Shown here piece after piece: positions 10,217-62,735 of a stretch of 64,000 bases of DNA. How positions within the stretch are numbered: the stretch's first letter is position 1; every line of letters starts with the position of its first letter. The notes under the pieces were generated by a model, which saw only the letters and a program-made list of their open reading frames with translations, made no database searches and was not told the origin of the DNA. Source of the DNA: Archivesica marissinica (taxonomy: Eukaryota; Mollusca; Bivalvia; Venerida; Vesicomyidae); assembly GCA_014843695.1 (NCBI GenBank), contig CM026402.1, positions 20,192,396 through 20,256,395 of the forward strand. The letters run 5' to 3'. Position numbers and translations under genes: made by a program.

Positions 10217-10650
10217 AAAAAGAAAGTGTGCACTTGGTTAGAGGGAAAATTATATACTTATATTCACAGGTAAAACAGTGTTAACCCTTTCAACACCAAG
10301 TAACTCACATGGACTGGTCCATGATATTCATAAACCAATAAATGAATCAGAAAATCACATTTGTACAAGTTCATTTATCAAAATGGGTAATTATGTCTAA
10401 AAATAGTCATATCACTGGCAACAAGTGCAGATCCTGATGAGATGGCTCGTCACGAGCCGGCTCATCTGGATCTACACTTTTTGTAAGCCTATTTAGAGGT
10501 CTGTGGTGTTGAAAGGGTTAAATTTCAATTAAAAGTAAAACATTTTGTAGCCAATACATTTTTGCACATTTTGATACTAAATTTTCCTATTTATTGCTTC
10601 TATATATAAGTATAAAATTTTCCCTCTAACCAAGTGAACACTTTCTTTTT
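10217..10650. mobile_element. fold-back element with 43-bp inverted arms, MITE-1 nested inside
   Basis: Arms at about 10217-10263 and 10605-10650 are inverted copies of each other: GAAAGTGTGCACTTGGTTAG on the left, CTAACCAAGTGAACACTTTC on the right, continuing into AT-rich sequence with only a few mismatches. MITE-1 copy A (10281-10521) lies between them. This looks like an older non-autonomous TIR element into which MITE-1 inserted. No target duplication is evident at the outer ends, so the exact termini are uncertain. Confidence 0.55.
10281..10521. mobile_element. MITE-1 copy A, TTAA-flanked (piggyBac-like)
   Basis: A 233-bp element lies between two TTAA tetranucleotides (10281-10284 and 10518-10521). 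The termini are inverted: CCCTTTCAACACC on the left and GGTGTTGAAAGGG on the right. Inside is a palindromic centre, GCTCGTCACGAGCCGGCTCA, flanked by oppositely oriented AGTGCAGATCC/GGATCTACACT. TTAA target duplication with CCC...GGG ends is the signature of the piggyBac superfamily; assignment of this non-coding element to it is an inference. Related copies are at 11013, 11695, 14058 and 60668. Confidence 0.8.
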
Positions 10651-10768
10651 CGTGTGAGTATATATACCCACACACAATATTTTGTGTCCTCCCCACAGCT
10701 TAACACCTATTGAAGGATTTTTAAATAACTTTGGCACAATTGTATGTTCGTCACGTTGTGATGGTGTG

Positions 10769-11077
10769 CAACAGGGCACAACTTTCCCCCCTTGTTCATT
10801 CAATTAATACAATGTTTATGGAAGATCTCATTTCAACGAGGAATTATTACGAGTTTGATTAACCCTTTCAAAACTACAGACCCCTAAATAAGCTTACAAA
10901 GAGTGTAGATCCAGATGAGCCGGCAACAGGGCACAACTTCCCCCCTTGTTCATTCAATTAATACAATGTTTATGGAAGATCTCGTTTCAACGAGGAATTA
11001 TTACGAGTTTGATTAACCCTTTCAACACCACAGACCCCTAAATAAGCTTGCAAAGAGTGTAGATCCAGATGAGCCGG
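10769..11077. repeat. 154-bp tandem duplication including a MITE-1 end
   Basis: 10769-10923 and 10924-11077 are two near-identical copies, both starting CAACAGGGCACAACTT and ending GATCCAGATGAGCCGG. Each contains unique flank plus the left 60 bp of MITE-1 (TTAA at 10859 and 11013). The breakpoint lies in the MITE palindrome, so the duplication happened after the MITE inserted. The partial MITE at 10859-10923 is the by-product. Confidence 0.85.
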
Positions 11078-11255
11078 CTCATGACGAGCCATTTCATCAG
11101 GATCTGCACTTTTTGCCAGTAATATTGGTATTTTTAGAGAAAATTACCCATTTTGATAAATGAACTGGTCCAAATGTAATTTTCTTATTAATTTTATTGG
11201 TCTAATAATAGCATGCACCAGTCCATGTCAGTTACTTGGGTGTTGAATGGGTGCT
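11013..11255. mobile_element. MITE-1 copy C
   Basis: Same element as copy A in opposite orientation. It starts TTAACCCTTTCAACACC and ends GGGTGTTGAATGGG, but the right flanking TTAA has decayed. The central palindrome and the ATTACCCATTTTGATAAATG segment are conserved. Confidence 0.8.
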
Positions 11256-11694
11256 TATACTATCTTCAGTACAGCTACAACACCAGTAGAGAGTAGGCGC
11301 TTTAGATGGTAAATGCATGTTGTGTATTATGCATGTATGTGTGCCTCTTGTACTGTATGAAATCTTACTGCACAGCTCTCTAATGCAACAGGGTCAGTAT
11401 AGTGCCTCATCTACTGGCAGGATAGATATATGTAGCTATCAAGACCAGTTAATACGATTGGTTGATTCTGAGATTCGCTCTGGTTTCGACCAATGAAAAA
11501 GCTTTTTAAGACTCGAGTTTGAGGTTGGAGACAAGTTTTATGACTTCCAGGTTTGGCCAGTTTGGGTCAGCGTTGTTTATTGTAACATTTACAGATTGAC
11601 GTCAATAGAATGTTGCCGTAGAAACACAATGTATGACTAACCTGTATCTCTTGAAAGTTGTTCTTCTAAAAGATATTTACTGCATTTGTTTTGT

Positions 11695-11928
11695 TTAACC
11701 CATTCAAGCCTCTAATTAGGCTTGCAAAAAGTGTAGATCCAGATGAGCCAGTTCATGACAAGCCGTCTCATCATGATCTGCACTTTTTGCCAGTAATATT
11801 ACTATTTTTAGATAAAATTACCCATTTTGATAAATGAACTGGTCCAAATGTAATTTTCTTATTTAATTTATTTGTCTAAAAATAGCATGCACCAGTCCAT
11901 GTCAGTGACTTGGTGTTGAGTGGGTTAA
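11695..11928. mobile_element. MITE-1 copy D
   Basis: TTAA at both ends (11695-11698, 11925-11928). The left terminus is diverged (CCCATTCAAGCC); the right terminus is GGTGTTGAGTGGG. The internal GTGTAGATCCAGATGAGCC and CATGCACCAGTCCATGTCAG blocks match the other copies. Confidence 0.8.
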
Positions 11929-12028
11929 ACAGGAAAATGCTGAATATTCTATATATGTTTTCATTTTGGTGTTAGGATCATGTATAATGACTGTCTATGA
12001 TCGTCATGATCATACTGATGTATATTAA

Positions 12029-12284
12029 TCATCTTGTTGCTATGGTGATATAATGATCTAATTGCCAAGGTCATTCTGATTTGGTATTACTCTATCATCT
12101 TGTTGCTATGGTGATATAATGATCTAATTGCCAAGGTCATTCTGATTTGGTATTACTTTATCATCTTGTTGCTATAGTGATGTAATGATATGACTGTCAA
12201 GGTCATTCTAGTTTGGTAATCATTTATGATAGTGTTGCTGTGGTGATGTAATGACCAGGTCATGCTTGTATCTAATTTGGTTTA
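12029..12284. repeat. 66-bp minisatellite, about 4 units
   Basis: Units start ATCATCTTGTTGCTATGGTG at 12031, 12097 and 12163 (period 66), followed by a more diverged fourth unit. The first two are nearly identical. A degenerate fragment of the same repeat continues at about 12498, on the far side of the SINE at 12297-12484, so the SINE landed inside this array. Confidence 0.85.
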
Positions 12285-14344: not shown

Positions 14345-15012
14345 CTTGTTGACCTGTTTACATAATACATACCCATTTGTTTTTAAAATCTCACCTGTTT
14401 CTTATTGTTGACCTGTTCATACATGTCTAGTCCATGCTATGTATTATTGTCTATCTGTTAAATCTACTTATTGTTGACTTGTTCATACATGTCTAGTCCA
14501 TGCTATGTGTTATTGTCTATCTGTTAAATCTACTTATTGTTGACTTGTTCATACATGTCTAGTCCATGCTATGTATTATTGTCTATCTGTTAAATCTACT
14601 TATTGTTGACTTGTTCATACATGTCTAGTCCATGCTATGTGTTATTGTCTATCTGTTAAATCTACTTATTGTTGACTTGTTCATACATGTCTAGTCCATG
14701 CTATGTATTATTGTCTATCTGTTAAATCTACTTATTGTTGACTTGTTCATACATGTCTAGTCCATGCTATGTATTATTGTCTATCTGTTAAATCTACTTA
14801 TTGTTGACTTGTTCATACATGTCTAGTCCATGCTATGTATTATTGTCTATCTGTTAAATCTACTTATTGTTGACTTGTTCATACATGTCTAGTCCATGCT
14901 ATGTATTATTGTCTATCTGTTAAATTTACTTATTCTGTTGACCTGTTTACATAATACATACCCTTTTGTTTTAAAATCTCACCTGTTTCTTATTGTTGAC
15001 TTGTTCATACCA
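14345..15012. repeat. 66-bp array (8 units) inside a duplicated flank
   Basis: Eight units starting GTTCATACATGTCTAGTCCA at 14415, 14481, 14547, 14613, 14679, 14745, 14811 and 14877 (period exactly 66) differ mainly at one site (ATGTATTAT or ATGTGTTAT). The sequence before the array (GTTGACCTGTTTACATAATA onward, 14348-14414) is repeated almost exactly after it (14937-15010), so the array sits inside a larger duplication. It is unrelated in sequence to the other 66-bp array at 12029. Confidence 0.92.
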
Positions 15013-39149: not shown

Positions 39150-40112
39150 TACGGAGTCAAAAAAGAAACGATACCAAACTAAAAATGACGTAAAACGGAT
39201 AAAACCATAGAAAGGTTTAATATATTATTACGTATCAGTACCGGGTATCTTATTGCAACGTCAGTCAACCATAAACACAGGTAAATAAACACCCGATAAT
39301 CCTGGACCGCCGAATTTCCGACTTGCACGTGCTCCTCAACAAAGACAACTTCCTACACATGTACAAATCGGAAAACCGGTTTATTGTACTGGTATTGCAT
39401 TATCATCGAGGAAAAACACCTTACATACCCATTGTTACCTCTAACAAAATGCCTAGGCTAAACCGCAATCAGAGAATGCGTGCCATTGGCATGATTGACG
39501 GCGGTTTACGTCAGCGTGACGTCGCAAATCGACTCGGGGTTACGCGGATCACGATAACACGTCTACTTCGACGTTATCGAACACATGGATCGGTGGACGA
39601 CCGTCCAAGATCTGGTCGACCACGTGTGACGACGCGTGAACAGGACCGTCACATTCGGACGTCACATTTACGTGACCGGTTCCTACCTGCTACGCACACA
39701 GCTGCCGTTACTCCTGGGATGACCAACAATCGCATCAGTGCACAAACAGTCAGGAACCGGCTCGGTGAATGTGGCATTCGTGCCTATCGGCCATACGTTG
39801 GACCCATCCTGACACGGAGCGGATGGCAGAGAGCGGGTATATCACAGACGCGGTGAACGTTACGCCGACGCATGTGTACGTCAGGTCGATCTGTTCGGGG
39901 GCGGAAGCGTTATGGCGTGGGGCGGTATCACCTTCGGCAGTCGCACTGAACTGTTAGTGGTGGACGGGAACCTAAACGCTCAGCGGTACTGTGATGAGAT
40001 CCTTGCGCCAGTTGTTGTGCCGTTCTTTAACGCCAACAGAAACGTCACACTGTTCCAACAGGACAACGCCAGGTGTCATTTAGATTCAGGAGATTTTCCG
40101 AAGAATTTGTAA
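39150..40112 (+). pseudogene. Tc1/mariner-type transposase, internally deleted and 3'-truncated
   Basis: The transposase start is ATG 39449 (MPRLNRNQRMRAIGM). Residues about 5-60 form the paired-like helix-turn-helix (GMIDGGLRQRDVANRLGVTR), followed by an AT-hook-like DRPRSGRPRVTT and the second HTH region ending VRNRLGECGIRAYRPYVGP. The frame then shifts near 39820-39840, and the other frame reads RERVYHRRGERYADACV, GGGSVMAWGGI (a family hallmark) and LFQQDNARCH with the second catalytic Asp (to 40075). The stretch between GPILT and GRERVY, which normally carries the first catalytic Asp, is deleted, and everything after ARCH, including the third acidic residue, is replaced by unrelated sequence. 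The element is therefore inactive. ACGGAGTCAAAAAAGAAACG at about 39150 is a plausible 5' terminal inverted repeat; no matching 3' repeat was found. Confidence 0.88.
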
Positions 40113-60667: not shown

Positions 60668-60970
60668 TTAACCCATCCAACAACAAATAACTGACATGGA
60701 CTGGTGCATGATATTAACCCATCCAACACCAAGTAACTGACATGGACTGGTGCATGATATTAACCCATTCAACACCAAGTAACTGACATGGACTGGTGCG
60801 TGATATTTTTTAGACCAATAAATTAATAAGAACATTATATTTGGACAAGTTCATTTATCAAAATGGGTAATTTTGTCTAAAATCGTAATATTACTGGCAA
60901 AAAGTCCAGATCGTAACGAGTCGGCTCAACTGGATCTACACATTGTATAAGCTTATTTAGAGGTATGTGG
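60668..60970. mobile_element. MITE-1 copy F with three reiterated left ends
   Basis: Three 46-bp units, each TTAACCCATYCAACA...TGACATGGACTGGTGC.TGATA, start at 60668, 60714 and 60760. The third continues into the normal MITE-1 interior (TTTAGACCAATAAATTAATA, AAATGGGTAATTTTGTC, GGATCTACAC). The right terminus is lost (GAGGTATGTGGTTAGCC). Confidence 0.85.
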
Positions 60971-61326
60971 TTAGCCTGGCTTCCAATCTGTCGATTTTTC
61001 ACCTTTTAACTTCTGGCAAAATGACACGTTGATATTATCAGAAACTCAATACGGCCCAATTAATAATCTCGGTGTTAAAATATATGTATGTGACTGACCA
61101 GGCAAACTATATCGACGCCTGTTCCCAGGCTAGAATTGACCCGTCGTCTTAACGAACAATACACCGAGCTGAAGGAGGTGTGGTGTATATTTCGTTAAGA
61201 TGGGCCAATGAATTGATCTCTCTGACTTAAGACAACATACATATGTAGATCGCGTCTATACGATTTAGAAGCGAGAAATGTGGCTTTTTCATTGGACCAT
61301 GTGACTTAGTCGTTGTCTAAATTGGT

Positions 61327-61449
61327 TATGTTATGTTATAATTCGGGTTTTACGCCTGCATCAGCACCATTTTGGGCTATATCGCCGGCGGGCAGTTTAC
61401 CTAACAACACCTTTCCTGAGCAGGCTCCAGCGGTTAACCAGTACTTGTG
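61327..61449 (-). mobile_element. SINE-C, 5'-truncated, with 13-bp TSD
   Basis: TGTCTAAATTGGT flanks the element on both sides (61314-61326, 61450-61462). From the TATGTTATGTTATAATTCGG tail to GGTTAACCAGTACTTG it matches 12297-12484 in reverse. The 5' part (AAGTTGGCAGTTTCTTACGG in the full copy) is missing, as expected of target-primed 5' truncation. Confidence 0.88.
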
Positions 61450-61462
61450 TGTCTAAATTGGT

Positions 61463-61650
61463 ATATACAAATTTATTTTAGTTCGATTGCGAAAATTCTT
61501 ACAACTTATATTAATCACTCTCGAGACCTCATTCCTGATGGAATCCATCGCCACGAGGGAGAGAGAAGAGGCAACGCGGAATTTAAATGCCTTGCCTAAG
61601 GGTACAATCGCAACGGCTCCAGCGGGGCTCGAACTCCGGACCGTTCGCAC
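61463..61650 (-). mobile_element. SINE-B copy
   Basis: Near-identical to 59313-59531 from ATACAAATTTATTTTAG to GGGGCTCGAACTCCGGACC, including AAATGCCTTGCCTAAGGGTA. The tRNA-like 5' end beyond the B box is replaced by unrelated sequence. It starts directly after the target duplication of the adjacent SINE-C. Confidence 0.85.
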
Positions 61651-61882
61651 CTGTGTTTTGGTTGCATGTGAATTTCGTGTAAATGAAAGGGGATTCGTCT
61701 TGCATCATAGCGAATGGCCATATATCACACCGTACGATATACCAACACCACGTTAAGCGATGTAATCCAGTCCTGCAAGTTGTTCAGTGTAGCATATATA
61801 CGATACTAAATCTAACTGCACATTGCGTATGTGGCATTTCCAATACAACTCTTAAAGATTTTTTAGTTTTATCCGGATGTAC

Positions 61883-61927
<45 letters not shown>
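61883..61927. repeat. (AAT)n microsatellite
   Basis: About 15 AAT units followed by an A-rich AAAAATAAAAATAAAAAAT stretch. Confidence 0.95.
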
Positions 61928-61931
<4 letters not shown>

Positions 61932-62207
61932 TAAAAATAAAAAATATATAAAAAAATAATAAAGACTTATTTTACGAGAGAACTCATTAAACAAAAGTTA
62001 ATCTACCTTAAGGCCCTCAACATATATACATATATAAGTTAAAACTGCATATTGGAATTATATCGTACGTGTACGAACTTTCCAAAGACCTATTTTTACG
62101 TAGGCACACACTGTTCAAAGGCGTACGATCGATATGAAAGACCTATCAATTCAACTCGGATCCCACCGTAGAAGCCAACAAACGCTGTTTGTCGACTTAA
62201 ATAGCAC

Positions 62208-62735
62208 AATGTGTTGAATGGGTTAATATCATGCACCAGTCCATGTCAGTTACTTAGTGTTGAATGGGTTAATATCATACACCAGTCCAGGTCAGTTACA
62301 CGGTGTTGAATGGGTTCAAATCATACACCAGTCCATGTCAGTTACTTGGTGTTGAATGGGTTAACATCATGCACCAGTCCATGTAAGTTACTTGGTGTTG
62401 AATGGGTTAATATCATGCACCAGTCCATGTCAGTTACTTGGTGTTGAATGGGTTAATATCATGCACCAGTCCATGTCAATTACTTAGTGTTGAATGGGTT
62501 AATATCATGCACCAGTCCATGTCAGTTACTTAGTGTTGAATGGGTTAATATCATGCACCAGTCCATGTCAGTTACTTAGTGTTGAATGGGTTAATATCAT
62601 GCACCAGTCCATGTCAGTTACTTGGTGTTGAATGGGTTAATATCATGCACCAGTCCATGTCAGTTACTTGGTGTTGAATGGGTTAATATCATGCACCAGT
62701 CCATGTCAGTTACTTGGTGTTGCATGGGTTCATTC
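62208..62735. repeat. 46-bp array of MITE-1 ends (11 units)
   Basis: Units start TTAATATCATGCACCAGTCC and end TTGGTGTTGAATGGG; starts at 62223, 62269 and every 46 bp to 62683. This is the MITE-1 terminus (GGTGTTGAATGGG-TTAA) plus 29 bp of subterminal sequence, in the opposite orientation to the three units at 60668. Each unit boundary is a TTAA, apart from one mutated unit at about 62315. No complete MITE-1 is attached. Confidence 0.93.

Follow-up and report, generated by a model that had tools for sequence, protein, structure and literature searches.

In the genome of Archivesica marissinica the left tip of MITE-1, a ~241-bp MITE flanked by TTAA, has been copied in tandem from a few to more than 100 times, giving thousands of repeats and an unusually clean example of a known route from mobile DNA to satellite DNA. 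The repeat unit is 46 bp long and consists of TTAA and the first 42 bp of the element (TTAACCCATTCAACACCAAGTAACTGACATGGACTGGTGCATGATA). For the most part the satellite is a run of these units forming the left end of a MITE-1 copy that is normal in other respects, and the passage from mobile element to satellite is caught in a single genome at several stages, with one, three, dozens and more than 100 units.

Repeat arrays and MITE-1 copies in the window

The window, that is, the whole stretch of DNA analysed, comprises 64,000 nt of assembly GCA_014843695.1 (CM026402.1, 20,192,396-20,256,395); all coordinates below refer to it. The pattern TTAACCCNTYNAACACC, with up to three mismatches allowed, matched 26 times in the window as against a shuffle mean of 4.9. 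The arrays occupy the following positions:

60668..60805, + strand: three left-end 46-bp units, head to tail, the last of them being the left end proper of the element
60806..60971, + strand: MITE-1 body, positions ~47-227 of 241; the final 14 bp, which include most of the right terminal repeat, are gone
60972..62210, no strand: spacer between both arrays, ~1.24 kb, containing copies of other dispersed repeats
62211..62226, - strand: partial unit of 16 bp, innermost in the right array; its + strand resembles the right terminal repeat missing at 60668
62227..62732, - strand: 11 complete 46-bp units, inverted relative to those on the left; the outer edge is a decayed TTAA, TTCA on the + strand

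The right array holds 11.35 units in total (62211-62732, - strand), and its inner edge falls at unit position 16, not on TTAA. Single-unit copies, together with one local contrast case, were found elsewhere in the window:

10281..10521, + strand: single-unit MITE-1, type a (CATAAACC), both ends TTAA
10768..11078, + strand: 154-bp tandem duplication of flank and 67 bp of MITE-1 end, junction off TTAA (the contrast case)
11013..11255, - strand: single-unit MITE-1, left end decayed
11695..11928, - strand: single-unit MITE-1, both ends TTAA
14058..14299, + strand: single-unit MITE-1, both ends TTAA

An earlier note on this DNA had proposed a satellite built from a MITE end, and this is borne out by the unit, which corresponds to bases 1-46 of the MITE found at these four single-unit positions. 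The inverted free units that it placed on the right are present as well, as 11 full units and the 16-bp partial one. Its further statement that three units precede a full element at 60668 holds for the three 46-bp units but not for the element, which stops at 60971 without its right terminal repeat and has the third unit as its own left end.

Several other features of the window were recorded. A dispersed repeat is represented by partial copies of 80-92% identity at 61464-61642, 59313, 63543, 43049, 15202 and 57887. Two 66-bp arrays (12028-12254 and 14401-14947), dissimilar to each other by eye, each begin ~100 bp downstream of a MITE-1 copy. The MITE-1 cluster at 10281-11928 recurs in inverted orientation at L071 (C17:24287156), ~4 Mb away on the same contig and with identical flanks and spacing; this is either a segmental duplication or an assembly duplicate. 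The ORF at 38282-38815 matches Pfam P2_N (viral coat protein) weakly and below the cutoff, and a 99% identical protein lies on a 1,660-bp public contig. The ORF at 39275-39856 gave helix-turn-helix matches and a below-cutoff match to a Tc3-type transposase, and is Tc1/mariner-like. Single-strand folding of a two-unit stretch was unremarkable (z -0.03). Traces of further units in the outer flanks were sought in eight comparisons, two of which, made on 30 and 20 bases of the right flank, reached p 0.015 and 0.017 respectively; given the eight tries they were discounted.

Genome-wide abundance and sampling

The genome searched comprises 1.537 Gb in 2,808 contigs. The exact unit junction, GATATTAACCCATTCAACACC, occurs 7,472 times (3,424 forward, 4,048 reverse), a few of these being single-unit copies with a chance GATA flank (two of nine lone matches examined, L143 and L146), and its reversed control does not occur at all. 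Searched with the window array, the genome yielded 2,474 candidate places; the top 40 of them were scored, and 37 loci were fetched from among these. This sample is skewed towards arrays resembling that of the window, and the homogeneity of its members is therefore partly a result of selection. L071 was omitted as a duplicate of L072; matches shorter than ~150 bp were also left out, and so, in the reading of variants, was L052, which gave no readable unit.

Parsing gave 48 array stretches with 1,625 units; they form head-to-tail arrays at many loci and carry locus-specific variants, as a satellite does. The array at L045 has at least ~137 units and extends past the fetched stretch. Low unit numbers were seen in the window and at L149 (three each) and at L090 (six). 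A second sample was blind to unit number (n-blind), its members being picked for resemblance to a single unit with the body behind it; once the query itself was removed from the 40 scored places, 39 copies remained, of which 37 are single-unit (including L123, which is out of register) and two have at least six units. All type-a copies parsed are single-unit.

Three patterns gave no match in the viral collection, and two gave none in prokaryote genomes. A 17-base pattern matched the viral collection 25 times; these matches are taken as chance, since each lacks both a unit-like continuation and an inverted partner within 1.5 kb.

Edges and bodies of the arrays

The outer edge of an array fell on TTAA (within 3 bases) in 30 of the 38 visible cases when scored by script in the fetched loci and the window. 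Read by eye, the other eight comprised three intra-array breaks (L038, L040, L065), one TTAA edge with a chance extension (L057) and four edges off TTAA (L043, L054 twice, L066), which brings the count to 31 of 35. Three outer edges were reached in the genome-order sample, those of L150 and L157 lying on TTAA and that of L149 on a decayed TTAA. The boundaries of units and arrays are thus mostly TTAA, as had been claimed, because the unit begins at the first base of the transposon and an array within the transposon ends at the target site.

Inner edges passed straight into the MITE body in 30 of 40 visible cases (31 with L058, read by eye). The passage lay one or two bases beyond position 46 in 27 of these 30, and 21 of the 30 bodies extended to position 237 or further. 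Five inner edges did not reach the body (L054 twice, L067, L069 and the right array of the window); the remaining four were intra-array breaks or a gap. None of the 22 multi-unit elements with a complete or near-complete right end carried an array there, and their 10-base right flanks were all different. A foldback structure of the Tetris type, with repeats at both ends, was accordingly absent from these 22, the window locus itself being ambiguous.

At that locus the inner partial unit corresponds to the missing right terminal repeat, so both arrays may be parts of one rearranged, foldback-like element running from 60668 to 62732: three units, body, an inserted 1.24 kb, right terminal repeat and 11 inverted units. 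This alternative concerns the window locus only and is compatible with the history preferred below. The body lacks just its right terminal repeat, the partial unit matches that repeat exactly with a 2 bp overlap (a coincidence of ~5% by our own estimate), and the arrays lie in inverted orientation at a distance of 1.4 kb. The bare right ends of the 22 elements nevertheless speak against it, as do the body-less arrays at L067, L069 and L054, and we regard a single element as possible but doubtful. The reading that we favour is that the right array is a second copy minus its body, in which case the locus would consist of one three-unit copy truncated on the right and one array that has been separated from its element.

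Class of the element

TTAA target duplications, as expected of piggyBac/TTAA elements, flank three of the four full window copies at both ends, and many fetched copies likewise. MITE-1 ends in CCCTTT and CCCATT and has terminal inverted repeats of 17-18 bp; a matching piggyBac-type transposase would have CCCWTTCAACACC ends. MITEs of the piggyBac/TTAA group are described as having 12-19 bp terminal inverted repeats that contain the end motif CC[C/T]T (PMC2872659). The CCCT of MITE-1 fits this motif, whereas CCCA does not fit it literally; a CCCATT end is also present in AmiPB4 (PMC2872659). According to the available part of PMC6004289, Kolobok elements (T2-MITE) have AG-type ends next to TTAA, whereas those of MITE-1 are CCC. 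MITE-1 is probably a non-autonomous piggyBac-like TTAA transposon.

Founding and spread of the arrays

The history that we consider probable on the whole begins with an ancestral copy in which a TT microhomology would have given rise to a head-to-tail duplication of the first 46 bp. The multi-unit elements would then have spread to many loci, and at each locus slippage and unequal exchange would have lengthened or shortened the array, so that private variants and new periods spread through it.

A microhomology of this kind would account for the founding junction: the element reads GATA followed by TTTTTAGACC and the repeat GATA followed by TTAACCC, the common part being TT (2 bp). Two other origins were rejected. 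One is nested insertion, which would need a TTAA at positions 47-50; none of the five MITE copies in the window has one there. The other is a T-run model with a 49-bp founder, whose predicted junction is absent from those of the fetched loci.

Multi-unit ends were probably dispersed, most simply by transposition, which is plausible because the outermost unit still supplies an intact TTAA end. No empty site was found. Position 39 bears on this step. C39 is present in 25 of the 38 readable copies of the n-blind sample. Of 32 array loci read, 30 from one set together with L101 and L116, five (L035, L041, L065, L101, L116) combine C39 in the unit adjacent to the body with G39 in the one immediately before it; at L101 the fourth unit also has C39, and L149 departs from the pattern in that each of its three units has C39. 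A C39 unit next to the body with G39 upstream would not result from copying of the C39 unit in place, and the position therefore speaks for a common multi-unit ancestor or for an incoming array. Units with C26, a mark of type-a left ends, account for 571 junctions and build arrays with periods of 35, 46 and 47 bp at separate loci. A single founder does not obviously explain these arrays, which count against it and allow that there was more than one origin. Resolution of the body tree was poor: array state had to change 11 times in a first tree, against a mean of 16 after shuffling, and six times in a second, from which copies without a left unit were omitted; a single array clade was not rejected (AU p 0.104).

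The arrays might instead have been carried into existing single-unit left ends by unit circles or gene conversion. Such exchange between loci would keep both edges exact and account for the scarcity of two to five units. In keeping with it, 41 of the 48 array consensuses are identical, the ratio of unit to body difference between loci is 0.45 +- 0.05 at 25 multi-unit loci and 0.93 +- 0.22 at 10 single-unit loci, and at 25 loci the units of an array have diverged less than the body they adjoin (paired p 7.5e-5). All of these figures, however, are depressed by a sample chosen for likeness to one array, and arrays found without such a choice (L090, L116) carry private consensus variants. We consider transfer between loci unlikely, and dispersal by multi-unit transposition is preferred.

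Growth of the arrays

Variants are spread locally. At L116 every one of the six units read carries 17T and 19T; at L090 five of the six units read carry 15C, and at L068 37A is present in 21 of 27. The private junction TGCATCAGTACAATTAA, which marks a longer variant of the unit, was counted 12 times, all at L045. Units with TTAA-less junctions are repeated as well, with four such junctions at L040 and three in succession, 33 bp apart, at L141.

Periods other than 46 bp were also found. The 47-bp class, in which GATAT is joined to TTAA, accounts for thousands of junctions; a search for periods of 47-77 bp gave 4,560 matches, and all 48 among the matches listed with letters have a period of 47 bp. 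A search for periods of 20-45 bp gave 928 matches, and by the listed coordinates different loci have periods of ~30, 31, 35, 39 and 42-45 bp, for example ~31 bp at C1:45205393, ~39 bp at C3:37917156 and ~45 bp at C4:1440623. The 35-bp array at L148 fits a 46-bp unit with an internal loss of 11 bp that retains the final A, or one with a flank base added.

Local variants, repeated TTAA-less units and varied periods together fit slippage and unequal exchange, and array growth looks like the ordinary outcome of these two processes. Counted against gradual slippage is the gap at two to five units in the n-blind sample, with three units present in the window and at L149. Sharing between neighbouring units of the window array was not beyond chance (shared variants p 0.10-0.14, distance p 0.10-0.25), and edge and middle units of 20 arrays did not differ significantly in divergence (p 0.14, 0.27). 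Tandem arrays, merged by hand into 20 with three short rows omitted, make up 32,411 of the 62,000 non-N bases of the window (52%), and the genome thus expands repeats readily. The 154-bp duplication, with its junction off TTAA, indicates that tandem duplication here does not require that sequence.

The earlier note had suggested repeated one-ended joining at TTAA as a growth process. This part of its account is not supported: private variants have spread, TTAA-less units are repeated at L040 and L141, and the five window copies have no TTAA at positions 47-50, the place required for a second joining. In a wider form of the idea, transposase would found or extend arrays when an end cut at TTAA is rejoined repeatedly inside the element or its sister. 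The left breakpoint is indeed the element's first base in most arrays, and periods of ~30, 31, 35, 39 and 42-47 bp, each with units starting in TTAA, occur by coordinates at separate loci, which could reflect independent inner breakpoints at a fixed TTAA. The period patterns themselves required TTAA, however, and are no test of joining there; L148, the sole TTAA-bearing short-period array read, fits a 46-bp unit with an 11-bp internal loss, and the TTAA-less units and local variants again point elsewhere. A transposase origin therefore appears distinctly unlikely. An extension of it, in which a complete, putatively transposase-binding end has been amplified thousands of times in arrays repeatedly founded by TTAA cleavage (several inner breakpoints, a fixed outer one) that might act as transposase decoys or brakes, is very unlikely.

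Comparison with known MITE-derived satellites

Conversion of MITEs to satellites is already known from Xstir, miDNA4, Tetris and CMITE. What is unusual in the MITE-1 satellite is a unit that comprises the complete terminal inverted repeat and the target site, taken from one end only and present in very high number. In the open-access papers searched no report of a satellite with such a unit was found, which does not prove its absence. Since each unit is a transposon end plus a target site, it can be asked directly whether transposition or replication error sets the units of a satellite.

The nearest relatives by class are CMITE and CMITE-IN, coral piggyBac/TTAA MITEs that share with MITE-1 the TTAA target, the CCC ends and a short, non-coding body (PMC2872659). 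CMITEs are characterised by a conserved internal region of 75 bp. One CMITE-IN prototype has two 23-bp direct repeats with TTAA between them and at both ends, and the authors suppose replication slippage to be the driver of the CMITE tandem arrays (PMC2872659). These arrays repeat whole elements of ~100 bp, whereas those of MITE-1 repeat only the left 46 bp (PMC2872659).

For the other systems the comparison follows the available portions of the sources. Xstir/Xmix of Xenopus T2-MITE resembles MITE-1 as a TTAA-target MITE, a piece of which has turned into a tandem repeat riding on the element, but its ends are of the Kolobok type (terminal AG) and the repeat is internal and not the terminal repeat (PMC6004289, PMC12628747). 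In miDNA4, also from Xenopus, a MITE likewise carries an array of variable length, the growth of which is ascribed to microhomology; it is, however, a Tc1/mariner MITE with an internal motif (PMC12628747). Tetris and TIR-220 are similar in that repeats within transposon ends seed longer satellite arrays, and differ in being Mutator-like according to their authors, with target duplications of 8-10 bp and repeats inside long terminal repeats (PMC4079207).

The left end of piggyBat, which is piggyBac-type, has three transposase-binding sites at a period of 44 bp, as compared with the 46-bp unit of MITE-1 (PMC11707139). By the nearness of these two spacings the unit may be a putative transposase-binding site, and the MITE-1 arrays allow the effect of extra sites of this kind on the mobility of an element to be addressed. 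In contrast to MITE-1, piggyBat is an active transposon with three sites, and a satellite is not mentioned in the available portion of its description (PMC11707139).
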